From positions 3,348,001 through 3,412,000 of the forward strand of contig NZ_BSDP01000001.1 in NCBI RefSeq assembly GCF_027925245.1: 64,000 nucleotides of DNA, read 5' to 3'. Origin of the DNA: Agromyces rhizosphaerae (GTDB lineage: Bacteria > Actinomycetota > Actinomycetes > Actinomycetales > Microbacteriaceae). A program made the position numbers and the translations under genes. The stretch's first letter is position 1, and every line of letters starts with the position of its first letter. The notes under the pieces are model-generated. The model saw only the letters and a program-made list of their open reading frames with translations. It searched no databases and was not told the DNA's origin. Shown here piece after piece: positions 13,560 through 21,029 of this stretch.

Positions 13560-15110
13560 ATGGAGATCGCCGGATTCTTCGGCATCCTGGTCATCGTCGG
13601 CATCGCGGTCGTCGCCGCGGTGGTCATCGGCCTGATCGTCCTGCTGTTCGCGCGCAGCTGGATCAAGGTCGCGAGGGCCGACGAGGCCCTCGTCATCTCG
13701 GGCCGCAAGCAGAAGGTGCAGCGCAGCGTCATCGGCGCGGACGGATCGACCCGTTCGGAGCTGTCGGAGTCGCCGGTCACCGTCATCGTCAACGGCAAGT
13801 CGCTGGTGAACCCGATCACGCAGCGACACGAGATCATCTCGCTCCGCTCCCGCCAGGTCTCGCTGAACGCCGAGGCGCAGTCGCTCGACAACGTCACGCT
13901 GAACGTCGACGGCGTTGCGATCGTGAAGATCGGCTCCGACCCGCTGTTCGTCCGCCGCGCGGCGGAGCGCTTCGCGTCGCAGGACAAGGCGATCGAGCAG
14001 TTCACGACCGAGCAGCTCGAGGGTGCGCTCCGCGGCATCGTCGCGACGCTGTCCGTGGTCGAGCTGATGCGCGAGCGCAAGAAGTTCTCCGACCAGATCG
14101 CCGCCGACGTGTCGCACGAACTCGCCGAGCAGGGGCTCATCCTCGACTCGTTCCAGATCAAGGGCATCACCGACGAGGTCGGCTACATCCAGTCGCTCGG
14201 CGCCCCCGAGATCCAGGCGAAGCGCCAGGCCGCCGAGATCGCGCAGACGAACGCCGACCGCGCGATCAACCAGAAGATCATCGCCAACCAGGAGGCGAAC
14301 CTCATCGAGCAGACGGCGCTCGACACGAACACCGCCAACGCGGACGCCGGCGTCGGCCGTGCCCGCGCCGAGGCGGAGCAGGCCGAGCACCTGGCTCGTG
14401 CCCGCGCGGAGCAGGCCGTGCTGCAGCAGCAGGCTGAGAACACGCAGGCCCGGCTCGACGCCGAGGTGAAGCGCGTCGCGGACGCCTCCCGGTACGAGGC
14501 GGAGACCCGCGCGCAGGCCGACCTCTACACGCGCGAGCGCTCGGCCGAGGCCGCCGCGATCGAGCAGGTCAAGCAGGCGGAGGCCCGCACGCGCATCGCC
14601 GAGCAGCAGGCGGAGGCCGACAAGGCCCGCGCCACCGGTGAGGCCGCAGCGGCCGAGGCGAAGTCGGCCGGTGAGGCGAGCGCACTGCGCGAGCTCGCGG
14701 ACGCCGAGGCGTCGGCCCGCCGTCTGAAGGCCCAGGCCGAGGCGGACGCGATCCGCGCCGAGGGCGAGGCCCGTGCCGCGGCCGTCGAGGCCGAGGCGCA
14801 GGCGATCGCGTCGAACCAGGAGGCGTTCCTGTCGCAGCGGGTGCTCGAGGTGCTGCCGTCGATCATGGCGGAGTTCGCGAAGGGCTACTCGGCGATCGGC
14901 AGCGTCTCGATCGTCGGCGGCAGCGAGGACGGCGCGAGCGGCGTCGTGGGCGGCGACAGCGCGAAGGCGATGCGCTCGGTGTTCGACAGCGTCGAGGCGG
15001 CCACCGGCCTCGACATCGCCGCGATCATCCAGGGCCAGGCGGTCGGTCGAGGCATCGGCGCTGGCGTCTCGGAGGCCGCGCTCTCGAAGAACGGCTCGCA
15101 CGACTCCTAG
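13560..15110 (+). CDS. Flotillin-like SPFH-domain protein
   Basis: A 516-residue membrane-associated scaffold. One N-terminal membrane segment (about 5-32) is followed by an SPFH/Band 7 domain (about 35-215). A long Ala/Glu/Gln/Arg-rich coiled coil runs from about 220 to 430, and the short C-terminal region is Gly/Ser-rich. This order matches flotillins, which oligomerise in membrane microdomains. A good Shine-Dalgarno (AAGGAG) lies before the ATG. No NfeD partner is adjacent, unlike the second SPFH gene at 35.8 kb. A CAGAAT box at 13462-13467 could be its promoter. Confidence 0.87.
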   Translation: MEIAGFFGILVIVGIAVVAAVVIGLIVLLFARSWIKVARADEALVISGRKQKVQRSVIGADGSTRSELSESPVTVIVNGKSLVNPITQRHEIISLRSRQVSLNAEAQSLDNVTLNVDGVAIVKIGSDPLFVRRAAERFASQDKAIEQFTTEQLEGALRGIVATLSVVELMRERKKFSDQIAADVSHELAEQGLILDSFQIKGITDEVGYIQSLGAPEIQAKRQAAEIAQTNADRAINQKIIANQEANLIEQTALDTNTANADAGVGRARAEAEQAEHLARARAEQAVLQQQAENTQARLDAEVKRVADASRYEAETRAQADLYTRERSAEAAAIEQVKQAEARTRIAEQQAEADKARATGEAAAAEAKSAGEASALRELADAEASARRLKAQAEADAIRAEGEARAAAVEAEAQAIASNQEAFLSQRVLEVLPSIMAEFAKGYSAIGSVSIVGGSEDGASGVVGGDSAKAMRSVFDSVEAATGLDIAAIIQGQAVGRGIGAGVSEAALSKNGSHDS

Positions 15111-15117
15111 CCCCTCT

Positions 15118-15177
15118 CGAGACCCGTCGAAAGACTGCGCTCTGGCACGCCAGAGCGCAGCTTTCTGACGGGTCTCG
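15118..15177. repeat. 60-base palindromic element, copy 1
   Basis: Arms CGAGACCCGTC and GACGGGTCTCG enclose a second perfect 12-base pairing (CTGCGCTCTGGC with GCCAGAGCGCAG) and a 5-base pairing (GAAAG with CTTTC). A transcript would fold into one hairpin of 28 pairs with single-base bulges and a very small loop. It lies in the gap between two convergent genes. Confidence 0.9.
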
Positions 15178-15191
15178 GAAGTGATCTGGGT

Positions 15192-15251
15192 CGAGACCCG
15201 TCAAGAACCTGCACTCTGGCCCGCCAGAGCGCAGCTTTCTGACGGGTCTCG
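15192..15251. repeat. 60-base palindromic element, copy 2
   Basis: A tandem copy of the preceding element, 14 bases further on. The outer arms are identical, while the left inner arm is diverged (CTGCACTCTGGC, AAGAAC). The right arm matches copy 1 exactly over 29 bases. The pair may act as a two-way terminator between the flotillin and dnaE2 genes. Confidence 0.88.
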
Positions 15252-15289
15252 GTCGCGTGGGGGCGGATGCCGCGGGGTGACGCCCCGCG

Positions 15290-18200
15290 TCAGCGGAAGT
15301 CGCGCGAGCGGTTCGCCGCCGACACGGCGAGCGACTCGAACCGGTCGGCGACGAGGTTCGTCACGCCCTCGGGGGAGCGCTCGAGCACTCCGCGCACGAC
15401 CATGGCGGGCGCCTCGCGGGCGACCCGTCGGAACCGGGTCCAGACCCCGACCCCGGCGATGACGTTCAGCGTGCCCGACTCGTCCTCGAGGTTCAGGAAC
15501 GTGATGCCGCTCGCGGTCGCCGGCCGCTGCCGGTGCGTGACGACCCCGCCCACCTCGATGCGCCGACCGTTCTCGGCCGCCCCGAGCCGGTCGATGCGGA
15601 GCGCCCCGCGCGCGTCGAGGTACTCGCGCACGTGCCGAATGGGGTGGTCGTCGGTCGACACGCCCGTCGCCCAGAGGTCGTAGACGACCTGCTCGGCGTC
15701 GGTGAGCATCGGCAGCAGCGGCGGCTGCACCACGACCACGGAGCCGGCGAGCGTGTCGGGGCGGTCCTGCGCGGCCTCACCCGCGAGCCAGAGCGCCTGC
15801 CGCCGGTCGAGGTCGAAGCCCGCGAACGCCCCGGCGGCCGCGAGCGCCTCGAGCTGCTCGGTGTCGAGCCCGACCCGGCGGGCCACGTCGGCCATGTCGC
15901 GGTACGGACCGCGCGCCTCGCGCTCGGCCACGATCCGCTCCGCCACCGCATTCCCGATCGAGTGGATCTCGGCGAGCCCCAGCCGCACGGCGAACGCCCC
16001 GTCGCGCCGGTGCGCCGCGCCCTCGTCGGGCGCCGACCGGTCGAACGGCCCGACCGGCGGCTGCACGTCGTCGAGGCATCCGTCGCGCCCGGTCGCGGGT
16101 CGCCTCGCGGCATCCGACCCGCCCAGCCCCTCACCCGCGAGCGGCTCGAGCACCGCCTCGGCGCCCGACCGCTGCACGTCGGGCCGCAGCACCTCGACGC
16201 CGTGCCGGCGCGCGTCGGCCGTGAGCGTCTGCGGCGAGTAGAACCCCATCGGCTGGGCGCGCAGCAGCGCGGCGAGGAACGCGGCGGGGTAGTGCAGCTT
16301 GAACCACGAGCTGGCGTAGACGAGCAGGCCGAAGCTGATCGCGTGGCTCTCGGCGAAGCCGAAGTTCGCGAACGCCTGGATCTTGCCGTAGATCGCGTCG
16401 GCCGTCTCCTGGTCGATGCCGTTGCGCGCCATGCCCGCGTAGAGCTTCTCGCGCAGCGAGTCGATGCGCTCGATGCCGCGCTTGGAGCCCATCGCGCGGC
16501 GCAGCAGGTCGGCGTCTTCCGCGGTGCAGTCGCCGACCGCGACGGCCATCTGCATGAGCTGCTCCTGGAACAGCGGCACGCCCTTGGTGCGCGAGAGCAC
16601 GGGTTCGAGCTTCGGATGCAGGTAGGTGACCTCCTCCTGCCCGGTCGCGCGGCGGATGTACGGGTGCACCGCGCCGCCCTGCACGGGCCCCGGGCGGATG
16701 AGCGCGATCTCGACGACGAGGTCGTAGAACCGGCGGGGCTTCAGCCGGGGGAGCGTGCCCATCTGCGCGCGGGACTCGACCTGGAACACGCCGATCGAGT
16801 CGGCGCGGCAGAGCATGTCGTAGACCGCCTGCTCCTCCTTCGGCAGGGTCGCCAGCGACCACTCCTCGCCCGTCGCGGCGTGCACGAGGTCGATCGCGTA
16901 CTGCAGCGCGGCGAGCATGCCGAGCCCGAGCAGGTCGAACTTCACGAGGCCCATCCAGGCGCAGTCGTCCTTGTCCCACTGCAGCACGGTGCGCTTCTCC
17001 ATGCGGGCGTGCTCGATGGGGCAGACCTCGCCCACTGGCCGGTCGGTGAGCACCATGCCGCCGGAGTGGATGCCGAGGTGCCGCGGGAACCCCAGCACCT
17101 GCTCGGCGAGCTCGACGACCGGCTGCGGGATGTCGTGGTCGTCCGTCGAGACCACCGACCCCCAGCGCTCGACCTGACGCGACCAGGCGTCCTGCTGGCC
17201 GGTGGAGTAGCCGAGCGCCTTGGCCATGTCGCGCACCGCGACCTTCGGCCGGTAGCTGATCACGTTCGCGACCTGCGCGGCGTTCTGCCGGCCGTACTTC
17301 TCGTAGACGTACTGGATCACCTCCTCGCGCCGGTCGGAGTCGAAGTCGACGTCGATGTCGGGCTCCTCGTCGCGCATGCTCGAGAGGAACCGCTCGAACG
17401 GCAGCTCGTAGAAGATCGAGTCGACCGCGGTGATGCCGAGCACGTAGCAGACGGCCGAGTTCGCGGCAGAGCCCCGGCCCTGGCAGAGGATGCCCCGGGA
17501 GCGCGCCTCCCGCACGATGTCGTGCACGATCAGGAAGTAGCCGGGGAAGTCCTTCTGCTCGATGACGTCGAGCTCCTGCGCGATGCGGTCCCGCACATGC
17601 GCCGGGTCGCCCGGGTAACGCTCGGCGGCGCCCCGCCAGGCGAGCTCGCGCAGCCAGCTCATGGGCGTGTGCCCCGCGGGCACCTCCTGCCGGGGCAGCC
17701 GCGGCCGGGCGCTCCGCAGCCGGAACGACAGCTCACCCGCCAGGTCGACCGTGCGCGACACGGCGCCGGGGTAGCGCGCGAACCGCTCGGCCATCTCCGT
17801 GCCGGAGCGCAGGTGCGCGGTGCCGGTCGCGGGCAGCCAGCCGTCGAGTTCGTCGAGGCTGCGTCGGGCCCGCACGGCGGCGACGGCGGAGGCGAGCCGG
17901 TGCTCGGGCGGCGTGGCGAAGTGCACCGCGTTGGTCGCGAGCACGGGCATGCCGTGGCGGCCCGCGAGCCCGGCGAGCAGGTCGTTGGCGTCCTGGTCGC
18001 CCGGATGCCCGTGGTCGAACAGCTCCACGAAGACGTTCTCACGGCCGAAGCGCTCGGCCAGTCGCTCGAGCTCGCGGCCCGCGGCATCCGCCCCGCCCGT
18101 CTCGAGCGCGCGGCGCACGGTGCCCTTGCGGCATCCGCTCAGCACCGCCCAGTCACCGCCCGCCCGCTCGCCGAGCTCGTCGAGGTCGTAGGTCGGCCGG

Positions 18201-18718
18201 CCCTTCTCGCCGCCCGCGAGCTGTCCGGCCGTGATGGCCGACGCGAGCCGGTGGTAACCGGCCTCGCCGCGCGCGAGCACGAGCAGGTGGTCGCCCTCGG
18301 GATCGGCCATGCCCATCTGCGGGGTGGTGAGGCCGAGCGAGAGTTCCGCGCCGTACGCGGTCGCGAGCTCGGGGAACGCCTCGGCGGCCTCGGCGAAGCG
18401 CACGATGCCGTAGAACCCGTCGTGGTCGGTCAGGGCGAGGCCGGCGAGCCCGAGCCGGTGCGCCTCCTCGACGAGCCGCTCGGGCTGGCTGGCACCGTCG
18501 AGGAAGCTGAACGCGGAGTGCACGTGCAGTTCGGCGTACGGCACGGTCGCCTCGGGTGCCGCCTCCTCGTCGGCGGGCGGGCGGTACGGATGCCGCTTGC
18601 GGGAGAACGCCGGACCGTCGCCGCCGTCCGCGATCGGCCGGGGCGGCCCGGGGCGGCTCGCGTCCGACAGGGTGCGCTCGAGCTCCGACCACGGGATCGG
18701 CGGGTTGTTCCAGCCCAT
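15290..18718 (-). CDS. dnaE2: Error-prone DNA polymerase III alpha subunit DnaE2
   Basis: A 1142-residue C-family polymerase that makes mutagenic translesion synthesis with ImuA' and ImuB. The N-terminal PHP domain begins AELHVHSAFSFLDGAS (His65, His67). The palm carries PDIDVDFDSDRR with catalytic Asp residues, followed by GSAANSAVCYVLGI and FGFAESHAISFG. A C-terminal OB fold includes IEVGGVVTHRQRP. Between VLRPDV and VRLGLAEIHSIG there is a low-complexity insertion of about 50 residues. It starts by TGATG overlap with imuB, as the last gene of an SOS-controlled operon. Confidence 0.95.
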   Translation of the reverse strand: MGWNNPPIPWSELERTLSDASRPGPPRPIADGGDGPAFSRKRHPYRPPADEEAAPEATVPYAELHVHSAFSFLDGASQPERLVEEAHRLGLAGLALTDHDGFYGIVRFAEAAEAFPELATAYGAELSLGLTTPQMGMADPEGDHLLVLARGEAGYHRLASAITAGQLAGGEKGRPTYDLDELGERAGGDWAVLSGCRKGTVRRALETGGADAAGRELERLAERFGRENVFVELFDHGHPGDQDANDLLAGLAGRHGMPVLATNAVHFATPPEHRLASAVAAVRARRSLDELDGWLPATGTAHLRSGTEMAERFARYPGAVSRTVDLAGELSFRLRSARPRLPRQEVPAGHTPMSWLRELAWRGAAERYPGDPAHVRDRIAQELDVIEQKDFPGYFLIVHDIVREARSRGILCQGRGSAANSAVCYVLGITAVDSIFYELPFERFLSSMRDEEPDIDVDFDSDRREEVIQYVYEKYGRQNAAQVANVISYRPKVAVRDMAKALGYSTGQQDAWSRQVERWGSVVSTDDHDIPQPVVELAEQVLGFPRHLGIHSGGMVLTDRPVGEVCPIEHARMEKRTVLQWDKDDCAWMGLVKFDLLGLGMLAALQYAIDLVHAATGEEWSLATLPKEEQAVYDMLCRADSIGVFQVESRAQMGTLPRLKPRRFYDLVVEIALIRPGPVQGGAVHPYIRRATGQEEVTYLHPKLEPVLSRTKGVPLFQEQLMQMAVAVGDCTAEDADLLRRAMGSKRGIERIDSLREKLYAGMARNGIDQETADAIYGKIQAFANFGFAESHAISFGLLVYASSWFKLHYPAAFLAALLRAQPMGFYSPQTLTADARRHGVEVLRPDVQRSGAEAVLEPLAGEGLGGSDAARRPATGRDGCLDDVQPPVGPFDRSAPDEGAAHRRDGAFAVRLGLAEIHSIGNAVAERIVAEREARGPYRDMADVARRVGLDTEQLEALAAAGAFAGFDLDRRQALWLAGEAAQDRPDTLAGSVVVVQPPLLPMLTDAEQVVYDLWATGVSTDDHPIRHVREYLDARGALRIDRLGAAENGRRIEVGGVVTHRQRPATASGITFLNLEDESGTLNVIAGVGVWTRFRRVAREAPAMVVRGVLERSPEGVTNLVADRFESLAVSAANRSRDFR

Positions 18719-20286
18719 CAGTCGTACCTCGCCTCGGCGCGCCACTCGTCGGCGTCGCGCACGAGCAGCCAGGCCGCGCCGTCGTCGTCGACCACCTGGA
18801 ACCGGTGCGCGCGCCGGGCGGTCGCCTCGTCCCACCACCGTTCGACGACGGGCCACGGACCGGCCCACGCGCGCACCCGTCGCTGCCCGCCCGGCGCGAG
18901 CCCCGCGACCGTGAAGGCAGCGGGCGGCGCGCTGATCGACCCGCGTTCGTCGACGGTGACCACGGCCCCGTCGGCGTCGACGAGCCCGGCCGGCACCCGC
19001 TCGCGGAACACGGTGGCGGGCAGCGGCGACGGCAGCGACCCGGGCCAGGGGCGGTCGGATGCTCCCTCCGGCGGCCGGTCGCCCCACGGCACGTGCACCT
19101 CGCGGTCGGCCAGCATGCGCCCGCCCCCGATGGTCGCGGTGACGACGCCCTCGTGCCCGAGCATGCCCTGCACGCGGGTGAGACCGTGGTGCACGCGCTC
19201 GTCGGGGCCCGTGCCCCAGAGCCCCTCCTCGTGGTTGCCCGTGGAGTCGAGCCGCTCCGGGTGCACGCGCACGCGTGCGATCGGCGAGCGCAGCCCCGCG
19301 CCGGCGCTGCCCGAGCCCTGCAGCTGCCAGCGGATGCGGTCGACCACGTCGCCCGGCGTGAACCAGCGCGGGTGCAGCCAGTCGCGCGCCGAGACGCCGC
19401 CCTCGTCGTCGACGATCTCCACGTGCACGGCCGTGCAGACCAGCTTCGCGGCGGTGAGGCGCTCGATGAACGACTCCGCACGCGTGCGGAACGCGAACGC
19501 GAGCTGGTCGATGCGGTCGAGCGGCGGCTCGAACTCCACCTGCTCGTCCCACTCGGGCGGTGGCGTTCGCGCGAGCACGCGGGCGCCGTCGCGACCCGCC
19601 GCCCGGTCGTGCGCGAGCGAGCCCGTCGGCCCGAACCGGCGCAGCACGTCGTCGGCGGGCAGCGCGGCGAACTCGCCGAGCCGGCGCACGCCGAGCCGGT
19701 GCAGCAGGGTCGCGGTGCGCGGGTCGACGAGCACGCCCACGGGCAGCGGTGCGATGAACGCGGCCGATCCGCCGGGCTCGACCCGCCGCACCGGTGCCGA
19801 ATCCGAGGTCGCGCGCGCCGCCTGCTCGGCCGCGAACGGCCCGTCGGCGACGCCGACCCGCACCGGCAGGCCGAACCCGCCCACCGCGGCCCGCAGCGCC
19901 TCGGCCGCCTCGGCCTCGCCGCCGTAGTACCGCACCGGCCCGCGCGCCCGCACCGCGAGCGCGCCCGGGCGCAGCAGCTGCACGCCGGGCGTGGTCTCCT
20001 CGACCCGCCGCACGACCGGCTCGAACGCGCGCGCGTCGAGCGCGGCGTCGTAGTCGAGCAGCTCGAGTGCGGGGGAGCGATACTGCGCCTCGCGCAGCTT
20101 CAGCCCCCGTGCGACCCCGTCGCGCCGGGCCGCCGCCGAGCACGCGAAGACGAGCCCCTTCTCGACCAGCGCGAGCGGCGACTCGAGCGACAGGCCGGCC
20201 TCGCGCGCGGCCGCGATGACCGGCCAGTCGGGGCACCACACCACGATGGTGCGCCGCGGGTCGGATGCCTCGGGCACGACGCTCAT
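18718..20286 (-). CDS. imuB: ImuB, inactive Y-family polymerase adaptor
   Basis: A 522-residue Y-family polymerase homologue that acts as the adaptor linking DnaE2 and ImuA' to the beta clamp. The fold is recognisable (RRTIVVWCPDWPVIAA, LLDYDAALDARAFEPVV, helix-hairpin-helix LHRLGVRRLGEFAALP). The acidic catalytic residues of active Y polymerases are missing: DXD is WCPDW and the SIDE-like motif is absent. I did not find an unambiguous clamp-binding motif. It overlaps imuA' by ATGA and dnaE2 by TGATG, so the three subunits should be made together. Confidence 0.9.
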   Translation of the reverse strand: MSVVPEASDPRRTIVVWCPDWPVIAAAREAGLSLESPLALVEKGLVFACSAAARRDGVARGLKLREAQYRSPALELLDYDAALDARAFEPVVRRVEETTPGVQLLRPGALAVRARGPVRYYGGEAEAAEALRAAVGGFGLPVRVGVADGPFAAEQAARATSDSAPVRRVEPGGSAAFIAPLPVGVLVDPRTATLLHRLGVRRLGEFAALPADDVLRRFGPTGSLAHDRAAGRDGARVLARTPPPEWDEQVEFEPPLDRIDQLAFAFRTRAESFIERLTAAKLVCTAVHVEIVDDEGGVSARDWLHPRWFTPGDVVDRIRWQLQGSGSAGAGLRSPIARVRVHPERLDSTGNHEEGLWGTGPDERVHHGLTRVQGMLGHEGVVTATIGGGRMLADREVHVPWGDRPPEGASDRPWPGSLPSPLPATVFRERVPAGLVDADGAVVTVDERGSISAPPAAFTVAGLAPGGQRRVRAWAGPWPVVERWWDEATARRAHRFQVVDDDGAAWLLVRDADEWRAEARYD

Positions 20287-21029
20287 CCGGCGACCCGCCG
20301 CAGCGGCGCGGCCGGCGCCTCCGCCCCGGGCAGCGCATCTGTCGCACCGCCCTCGTCGACCCGCTCAGCCGCCGCGGCCACCCCCGGCAGCAGCAGCCGC
20401 GCGGTGCTCGCACGGCCGAACCCGCCCCGGCCCGACGCGGTGACGACCGCCTCGCGCGCGGCGAGCCGCCCGTGCCCGTCGCCGAGTCCGGTCCAGCGGC
20501 TCTCCGCGACCCGCAGCTGCACCTCGCTCTGCGGCCAGGTGCCGTCGACCACGAGCGCCGCACGGCGCTGGCGAAGCCGGGCTCCGAGCCGCGAGGCATC
20601 CGTCGCCCCCACCGCCTCGGGCGGGCGCACCGCCACGACCGGGATCACGTCGACGAGCGCGGCGACCACCGCGAGCCAGTGCCGCCCCGGCGCGGGCACG
20701 AGCACGAGCCGATCGAGGTCGAGCCCCGCGAGCCTGGCGGCCTCGGCGCCGAACCCCGGCACGCCGACCACCGCGACCCACGAGCCGGCGCCCGACGCGC
20801 CGGCGAGCATCGCCATGACGAGGCTGGTCGAGCCCTCGACGCCGTACGCGCCACCCTCGCGCAGCACCCCGCCCGGCAGCAGGTCGTGCAGCGCCGGCAG
20901 CGTCGGGATCGCCCGCCCCTCGAGCCGCGTGGACTGCATGTCGGCGATGCGCGCGCGCAGGGCGTCGGCGCGTTCGCGGGCCTCGCCCGCGGAGACGCGG
21001 GACGGCCGGAGGGGAGCGGTGAGTGCCAC
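20283..21029 (-). CDS. ImuA'-type mutasome protein, RecA-like fold
   Basis: A 248-residue RecA/SulA-like protein, the first gene of the imuA'-imuB-dnaE2 mutasome operon. The region aligned with a P-loop (about 62-70, YGVEGSTSL) lacks the Walker Lys, so ATP hydrolysis by a normal mechanism is unlikely. Known ImuA' proteins bind ImuB and help recruit the complex to lesions. The start is a GTG at 21029, 8 bases after a perfect LexA box. A start codon with little leader fits expression only on derepression. Confidence 0.85.
   Translation of the reverse strand: MALTAPLRPSRVSAGEARERADALRARIADMQSTRLEGRAIPTLPALHDLLPGGVLREGGAYGVEGSTSLVMAMLAGASGAGSWVAVVGVPGFGAEAARLAGLDLDRLVLVPAPGRHWLAVVAALVDVIPVVAVRPPEAVGATDASRLGARLRQRRAALVVDGTWPQSEVQLRVAESRWTGLGDGHGRLAAREAVVTASGRGGFGRASTARLLLPGVAAAAERVDEGGATDALPGAEAPAAPLRRVAG

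Follow-up and report, generated by a model that had tools for sequence, protein, structure and literature searches.

The window considered here is the whole stretch of 64,000 nucleotides of Agromyces rhizosphaerae DNA that was analysed, and positions within it are counted from its first letter. Two palindromic elements occupy a gap on which two genes converge, one for flotillin and one for a DnaE2-type polymerase. The features of the locus are as follows.

13560-15110 (+): flotillin gene, own gene prediction including its start; Pfam Band_7 and Flot
15118-15177 (no strand): element copy 1, 60 bp; 56-bp core at 15120-15175; outer arms 38 bp apart
15120-15139 (+): left half-site of copy 1, AGACCCGTC-GAAAGA-CTGCG
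15156-15175 (-): right half-site of copy 1, AGACCCGTC-AGAAAG-CTGCG
15178-15191 (no strand): linker between both 60-mers, 14 nt; 18 bp between the 56-bp cores
15192-15251 (no strand): element copy 2, 60 bp; core at 15194-15249
15194-15213 (+): left half-site of copy 2, AGACCCGTC-AAGAAC-CTGCA
15230-15249 (-): right half-site of copy 2, AGACCCGTC-AGAAAG-CTGCG
15290-18718 (-): DnaE2-type DNA polymerase III alpha gene; Pfam PHP, DNA_pol3_alpha and finger
18718-20286 (-): ImuB-like gene, next after the dnaE2-type gene

An earlier sequence-only reading of this DNA had proposed two near-identical 60-base palindromes, 14 bases apart, in a non-coding gap between convergent genes, with a changed left inner arm in copy 2. 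All of this is borne out. The flotillin gene (+) and the dnaE2-type gene (-) flank the pair; a direct repeat of 90% identity links 15117-15178 to 15191-15252 with a start spacing of 74, which is also the spacing in bp between the core starts; and inverted-repeat arms of 29 nt, 86% complementary in each copy, were located at 15118-15146/15149-15177 in copy 1 and at 15192-15220/15223-15251 in copy 2. The right halves are identical and copy 2 differs in its left inner arm. The length of 60 bases is upheld by the family as a whole, since the two positions next to the 56-bp core still show conservation, mostly as G and C (0.83 bits at -1 and 1.39 bits at -2), and position -3, at 0.33 bits, does not rise above the background of more distant bases.

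Predicted single-strand folds reach -53.2 kcal/mol for copy 1 (z -8.8) and -45.9 kcal/mol for copy 2 (z -6.5), and neither was matched by any of 200 shuffles. A comparison of 14900-15500 with Rfam returned five matches at E values of 1 or less, the best at 4e-06, all of them to microRNA precursor models (mir-5984, mir-1343, mir-281); all five lie below the gathering scores and were rejected as a reflection of hairpin shape. The region 15290-21029 (-), in which a third ORF of the same orientation accompanies the dnaE2-type and ImuB-like genes, resembles an imuA-imuB-dnaE2 cassette, imuA being assigned by position only.

Copies in the genome and their placement

The genome of Agromyces rhizosphaerae, searched as one contig of 3,607,789 bases with a 171-bp query around the pair, yielded 77 matching pieces. 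Many of these match other places at E < 1e-5, which rules out chance and a local duplication. Both 9-bp outer arms are exact in 38 copies (spacer of 36-48 bp), and 40 copies are obtained at a spacer of 38 with up to two mismatches. The full count is 41 copies in 28 clusters, two of these copies being the window pair; it was made on fetched regions, the tolerance being three mismatches and the spacer range 30-46 bp, after removal of matches in a shifted register and of one match that was unrelated. The element was thus rightly expected to recur, its absence elsewhere having been named beforehand as the outcome that would speak for a local event.

The consensus of the element is CG-AGACCCGTC-RA-N4-CTGCG...CGCAG-N4-TY-GACGGGTCT-CG, and that of the half-site CG-AGACCCGTC-RA-N4-CTGCG-YTC, with positions 1-9 and 16-19 near-invariant and position 20 mostly G. 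The distance between outer arms is exactly 38 bp in 40 of the 41 copies and 37 bp in one slightly decayed copy. Three copies show an arm mismatch, one each, in a search that is blind to strongly decayed copies. Half-site matches with up to two mismatches number 92 forward and 91 reverse, as compared to 26 and 31 with a backward control. Among the places listed, half-sites outside complete elements comprise none with 0 mismatches and two with one mismatch; the lack of perfect solo half-sites among these places makes it less likely that the elements originated as the terminal repeats of some larger insertion sequence.

The predicted intergenic placement, enriched between convergent genes, was recovered. 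None of the 28 clusters lies inside a gene predicted by our codon-usage caller, which misses some genes or gene parts (an example is the length of a 309-aa gene at locus L052), and two of them reach 4 and 26 bases into the end of a predicted gene. The surrounding gaps are convergent in 12 cases, tandem in 13 and divergent in 3. The convergent share, 12/28, exceeds the 16/101 found among gaps above 80 bp (Fisher p 0.004), a background that itself includes the element-bearing gaps. For 25 of the 28 clusters the closest gene end is a 3' end, with a median distance to the nearest end of 15 bp; in the classification of gaps the cluster at 2709496 was entered as a single copy, its class (convergent, 3'-end) being unaffected.

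Several side observations concern individual sites. With dnaA at 1.590 Mb, 27 of the 28 clusters lie within 1.2 Mb on either side; the dnaA-distal third of the chromosome is avoided, the window pair being the sole exception (p 0.0002, tested after the pattern had been seen). The 309-aa gene (L052:4182-5108, about 2,789,030-2,789,956 of the genome, G000) has element dimers on both sides, each with a spacing of 83, and shows a weak, below-cut-off match to the restriction-endonuclease-like PF18741. The same dimer-flanked arrangement recurs in another Agromyces genome (G016, locus L204), and the locus L096 of a metagenome assembly (MAG) has one dimer, its start falling inside another copy. A TetR-family gene (L051:4191-4817) lies between an element dimer and a single element.

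Spacing of tandem copies

Tandem copies were compared at 31 independent loci from four Agromyces species, after merging of orthologues; in these comparisons the genome G001 and the MAG were counted as one species. The spacing is 72-74 bp at 16 loci, 82-84 bp at 13, 91 bp at one and 94 bp at one, and spacings of 75-81 and 85-90 bp are absent from this set. Twenty-nine loci therefore stand at about 7 or 8 helical turns, 94 bp corresponds to about 9 turns and 91 bp is off phase. Thirty loci deviate by no more than 1.5 bp from 73, 83.5 or 94 bp, for which a uniform null gives a p of about 1e-15 with windows chosen post hoc. A triple in G016 (469714/469795/469877), which lies outside the 31-locus test set, has spacings of 81 and 82 bp, the former outside the phase window. 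The sole tandem pair found in g33, a second genus of the same family, is spaced by 73 bp, its partner copy having two arm mismatches.

The linkers have little sequence in common. Between unrelated loci, the similarity of linker cores equals that of shuffled sequences (0.324 vs 0.318; 0.333 vs 0.344), and whole linkers are slightly above it (0.374 vs 0.316; 0.387 vs 0.333) because their ends carry the conserved CG. The length of orthologous linkers is unchanged in 17 of 21 pairs and off by 1 in the other 4. Outer flanks, a control that is not length-matched and in which many pairs are counted in both directions, are unchanged in length in 8 of 78 rows, within 1 in 21 and changed by more than 1 in 57. 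As judged by these comparisons, linker length is conserved and linker sequence is free, and the hallmarks of a phased array, in which linkers of unconstrained sequence set the copies whole helical turns apart, are found at 30 of the 31 loci under post hoc windows.

Relatives, descent and covariation

Exact Agromyces arms occur in 4 of 60 relatives' genomes, the own genome included (38 copies in it, 49 in G001, 12 in G006 and 47 in G016), and the backward control gave 0 in all 60. The wider arm pattern GAYCCGTCR-N36-YGACGGRTC is present in 11/60 Agromyces genomes and in 10/16 genomes of g33, so that the anticipated presence in relatives is confirmed. With carriers making up only 11 of the 60 Agromyces genomes, a cognate protein would either fall outside the universal core factors or have a site that has drifted. 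The inner block of g33 (GCCC or GCGC) sits one base nearer the arm. Within the order, the wider arm was found in 5 of 396 genomes, with more than one copy only in the own genome and in G008, also an Agromyces. When up to two mismatches were allowed, Agromyces arms matched 39 of 398 genomes of a family sample; outside the own genome and g33 these matches are one copy each (two in one genome), those listed show no apparent relationship, and single matches also arose in about a dozen genomes with the backward control. A GTDB-wide arm scan returned 51 stretches, 33 of them from the Agromyces MAG, and the 18 outside Agromyces were discarded as all unrelated inside by eye. A phage origin was likewise set aside, as the two viral-contig matches look unrelated inside.

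In the g33 and other Agromyces sub-families, among 28 distinct copies inspected, 22 are nearest a 3' end, 3 nearest a 5' end and 3 in-gene. Two g33 species (L131 and L138, near 3002) have a copy in frame within an ABC transporter gene, between the membrane and ATPase domains, and a third (L136, near 3002) has one within a predicted gene.

At an aldehyde-dehydrogenase-like gene end (loci L145-L163, the gene being named by resemblance), a quite different palindrome, GCGGATGCCGC...GCGGCATCCGC, recurs in many of the other Agromyces genomes and is a candidate for a second repeat family; the genomes bearing it there are without the present sub-family. Given these other palindromes, a structure at this gene end may be generally needed.

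Orthologous sites were compared using 59 copy pairs (non-independent), 16 linkers and 78 flanks, sites of unequal copy number being excluded. Identity amounts to 99.1% in the arms, 92.2% in the inner blocks, 77.5% in the centre, 65.7% in the N6 spacer, 56.0% in the linkers and 78.6% in the near flanks. Random copy pairs are 98.8% identical in the arms and 45.2% in N6. With incomplete regional sampling, 32 of 60 orthology clusters are present in more than one genome. This, together with an N6 identity higher in orthologous than in random pairs, indicates that many copies are shared by descent with their arms held.

Pairing between the two halves was examined by covariation. The N6 halves of Agromyces do not covary (2.67 of 6 positions paired vs 2.72 when re-dealt, p 0.72) among 157 copies (40 + 52 + 13 + 52), and a first test on 39 own and 48 MAG copies had the same N6 outcome; stem pairing is therefore not the conserved feature in that genus. 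The four central positions of the Agromyces copies covary weakly (p 0.024 pooled, p 0.0025 for own copies alone). In g33 the halves do covary, with 4.98 of 6 N6 positions paired vs 4.12 when re-dealt and 0 of 3000 shuffles as high (53 copies), as expected of a hairpin or cruciform role, or if one half had recently been copied onto its partner. On this ground a hairpin role is possible in g33. The mean predicted fold of 161 distinct copies is -33.8 kcal/mol; half-sites have no stem-loop of their own and fold worse than shuffled sequences (-3.30 vs -4.69 kcal/mol, n 293).

Possible function and comparison with known systems

What the sequences themselves show is a family with near-invariant arms set a constant 38 bp apart, phased spacing, a characteristic position and a conservation of arms and linker length above that of neighbouring bases; protein binding, bridging of copies and a barrier role are what we infer. 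We give about an even chance to the reading that these elements are dispersed double-stranded DNA sites for a putative oligomeric protein, acting as a barrier at gene ends. Each 60-bp element would be a double-stranded site made of two inverted bipartite half-sites (an outer and an inner block), a putative sequence-specific oligomeric protein would grip both halves, and complexes on adjacent elements would touch on the same face of the helix. Such bridging would explain the 7, 8 or rarely 9 turns and the linkers of free sequence and fixed length. At gene ends the complex might stop or insulate read-through transcription or pin supercoils, in both directions; a barrier appears to be the likeliest job because the sites lie mostly just behind stop codons and often between convergent genes. 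The in-frame copies of the ABC transporter gene also fit a DNA site better than a terminator.

Other observations pull the opposite way. The g33 covariation, the weak central covariation in Agromyces and the strong folds count against a pure binding-site reading, and the phasing argument is weakened by the 91-bp locus, the later G016 triple and the post hoc windows. The two spacing classes could alternatively originate from two founder dimers with different linkers, spreading as units with rare indels. A broader and more doubtful proposal, advanced here only tentatively, is that of a boundary system of the Microbacteriaceae, in which a putative oligomeric protein would occupy dozens of 60-bp gene-end sites in 7-, 8- or 9-turn arrays as two-way barriers, the recognition sequence having drifted (AGACCCGTC...CTGCG, AGATCCGTC...TGCGC, GACCCGTC...GCCC) with the geometry kept.

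A rather unlikely alternative to the protein-bound sites is a bidirectional RNA element, each copy of which, transcribed either way, would fold to end transcription or to protect mRNA 3' ends. The strong predicted hairpins of the window copies, the location after stop codons and in convergent gaps and the covarying halves of g33 favour it, as do the other strong palindromes at the gene end compared in many Agromyces without this sub-family, which would be expected if hairpin function mattered there. However, no T-tailed terminator-like site (GC-rich stem followed by a T-run) occurs in 14800-15600, the Agromyces copies combine arms frozen in sequence and a fixed length with an N6 that does not covary, RNA folding does not predict spacing in DNA turns, and some copies are in frame within an ABC transporter gene. 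Actinobacterial terminators often lack a U-tract.

A non-autonomous mobile palindrome, broadly MITE- or REP-like, without RAYT, moved by another enzyme and kept at gene ends as the least harmful place, is unlikely in our estimate. It agrees with the dispersed copies, the patchy presence among species, the genus- and lineage-specific sub-families and the 1-3 copies per site. Copy number (1, 2 or 3 per site) differs in 10 of the 32 shared clusters and some orthologous gaps are empty in sister species, so that units have been gained or lost. On the other side, no clean target duplication was seen at the empty sites inspected, and arms remain 99.1% conserved though spacers and linkers have diverged by a third or more. 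Arm mismatches are confined to 3/41 own copies (strongly decayed copies being invisible to the search), no 0-mismatch solo half-site was present among the listed places, unlike what the ends of a longer element would leave, and helical phasing is not predicted by mobility.

The REP/BIME-type repeat with a cognate RAYT (Y1 tyrosine transposase) put forward by the sequence-only reading is not supported and is highly improbable. The elements are palindromic, intergenic, tandem and placed at 3' ends, as are published REPs in the part of PMC3733652 available. However, Y1_Tnp (PF01797) is present in 0 of the 14 carrier genomes tested (the own genome, 3 other Agromyces and 10 g33), out of 21 known carriers; the single PF01797 match among 19 genomes lies in a non-carrier. 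The half-site profile is devoid of a GTAG/GGAG-type tag beside a stem-loop unit, the halves forming no stem-loop and folding below the shuffled level, and a REP-type reading leaves the whole-turn tandem spacing unexplained.

Repeated palindromes between bacterial genes are usually put down to REPs mobilised by a RAYT or to RNA hairpins. The frozen arms, free spacers and kept lengths and phase observed here argue for a further role as protein-bound DNA; if this is true, a gene-end barrier protein awaits discovery in a well-populated actinobacterial family. No description of the present family was found in the literature searched, which covered few subscription papers and included the parts available of PMC3733652, PMC12306157, PMC5217419 (CRISPR only) and PMC8355165. 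The same literature yielded neither helical phasing joined to repetitive extragenic palindromic elements nor REPs with RAYT in actinobacteria, and among the literature matches listed for the arm sequences none concerns bacterial repeats by title. The U-tract-less intrinsic terminators and hairpin clusters of PMC8355165, in the portion available, resemble the elements as hairpins directly behind stop codons, whereas the Agromyces elements conserve sequence and not pairing (N6), have a fixed length and are phased.

By the tests made, the family belongs neither to the RAYT-associated nor to the CGTC-tagged REPs. The latter were reportedly described by Di Nocera et al. in 2013. In the available part of PMC3733652 they have a terminal CGTC tag, an own stem of 8-9 bp with a loop of 4-5 nt, and occur mostly as head-to-head dimers. 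Neither such a terminal tag nor such a stem-loop is found here, CGTC sitting within the arm; the intergenic, 3'-end-proximal position and the lack of a dedicated transposase are shared (only Y1 transposases were searched). According to the same part of that source, the likeness extends to palindromic form, a position behind genes, often between convergent genes, and some in-gene copies; the Agromyces arm contains CCGTC, and in some of the published dimers the spacers are alike in length and differ in sequence. Unlike those REPs, the unit is here one 60-bp inverted repeat, its halves have no stem-loop and the tandem copies are phased.

As with the BIMEs of E. coli, the elements are repeats at the 3' ends of transcription units that are proposed to be protein-bound DNA. 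In E. coli, BIME-1/RIB elements are bound by IHF and BIMEs by gyrase. IHF and gyrase are also mentioned in the portion of PMC3733652 available. The Agromyces and g33 carriers tested differ from E. coli in having no Y1 transposase. By analogy, the family would partly work like the REP/BIME repeats bound by IHF or gyrase.
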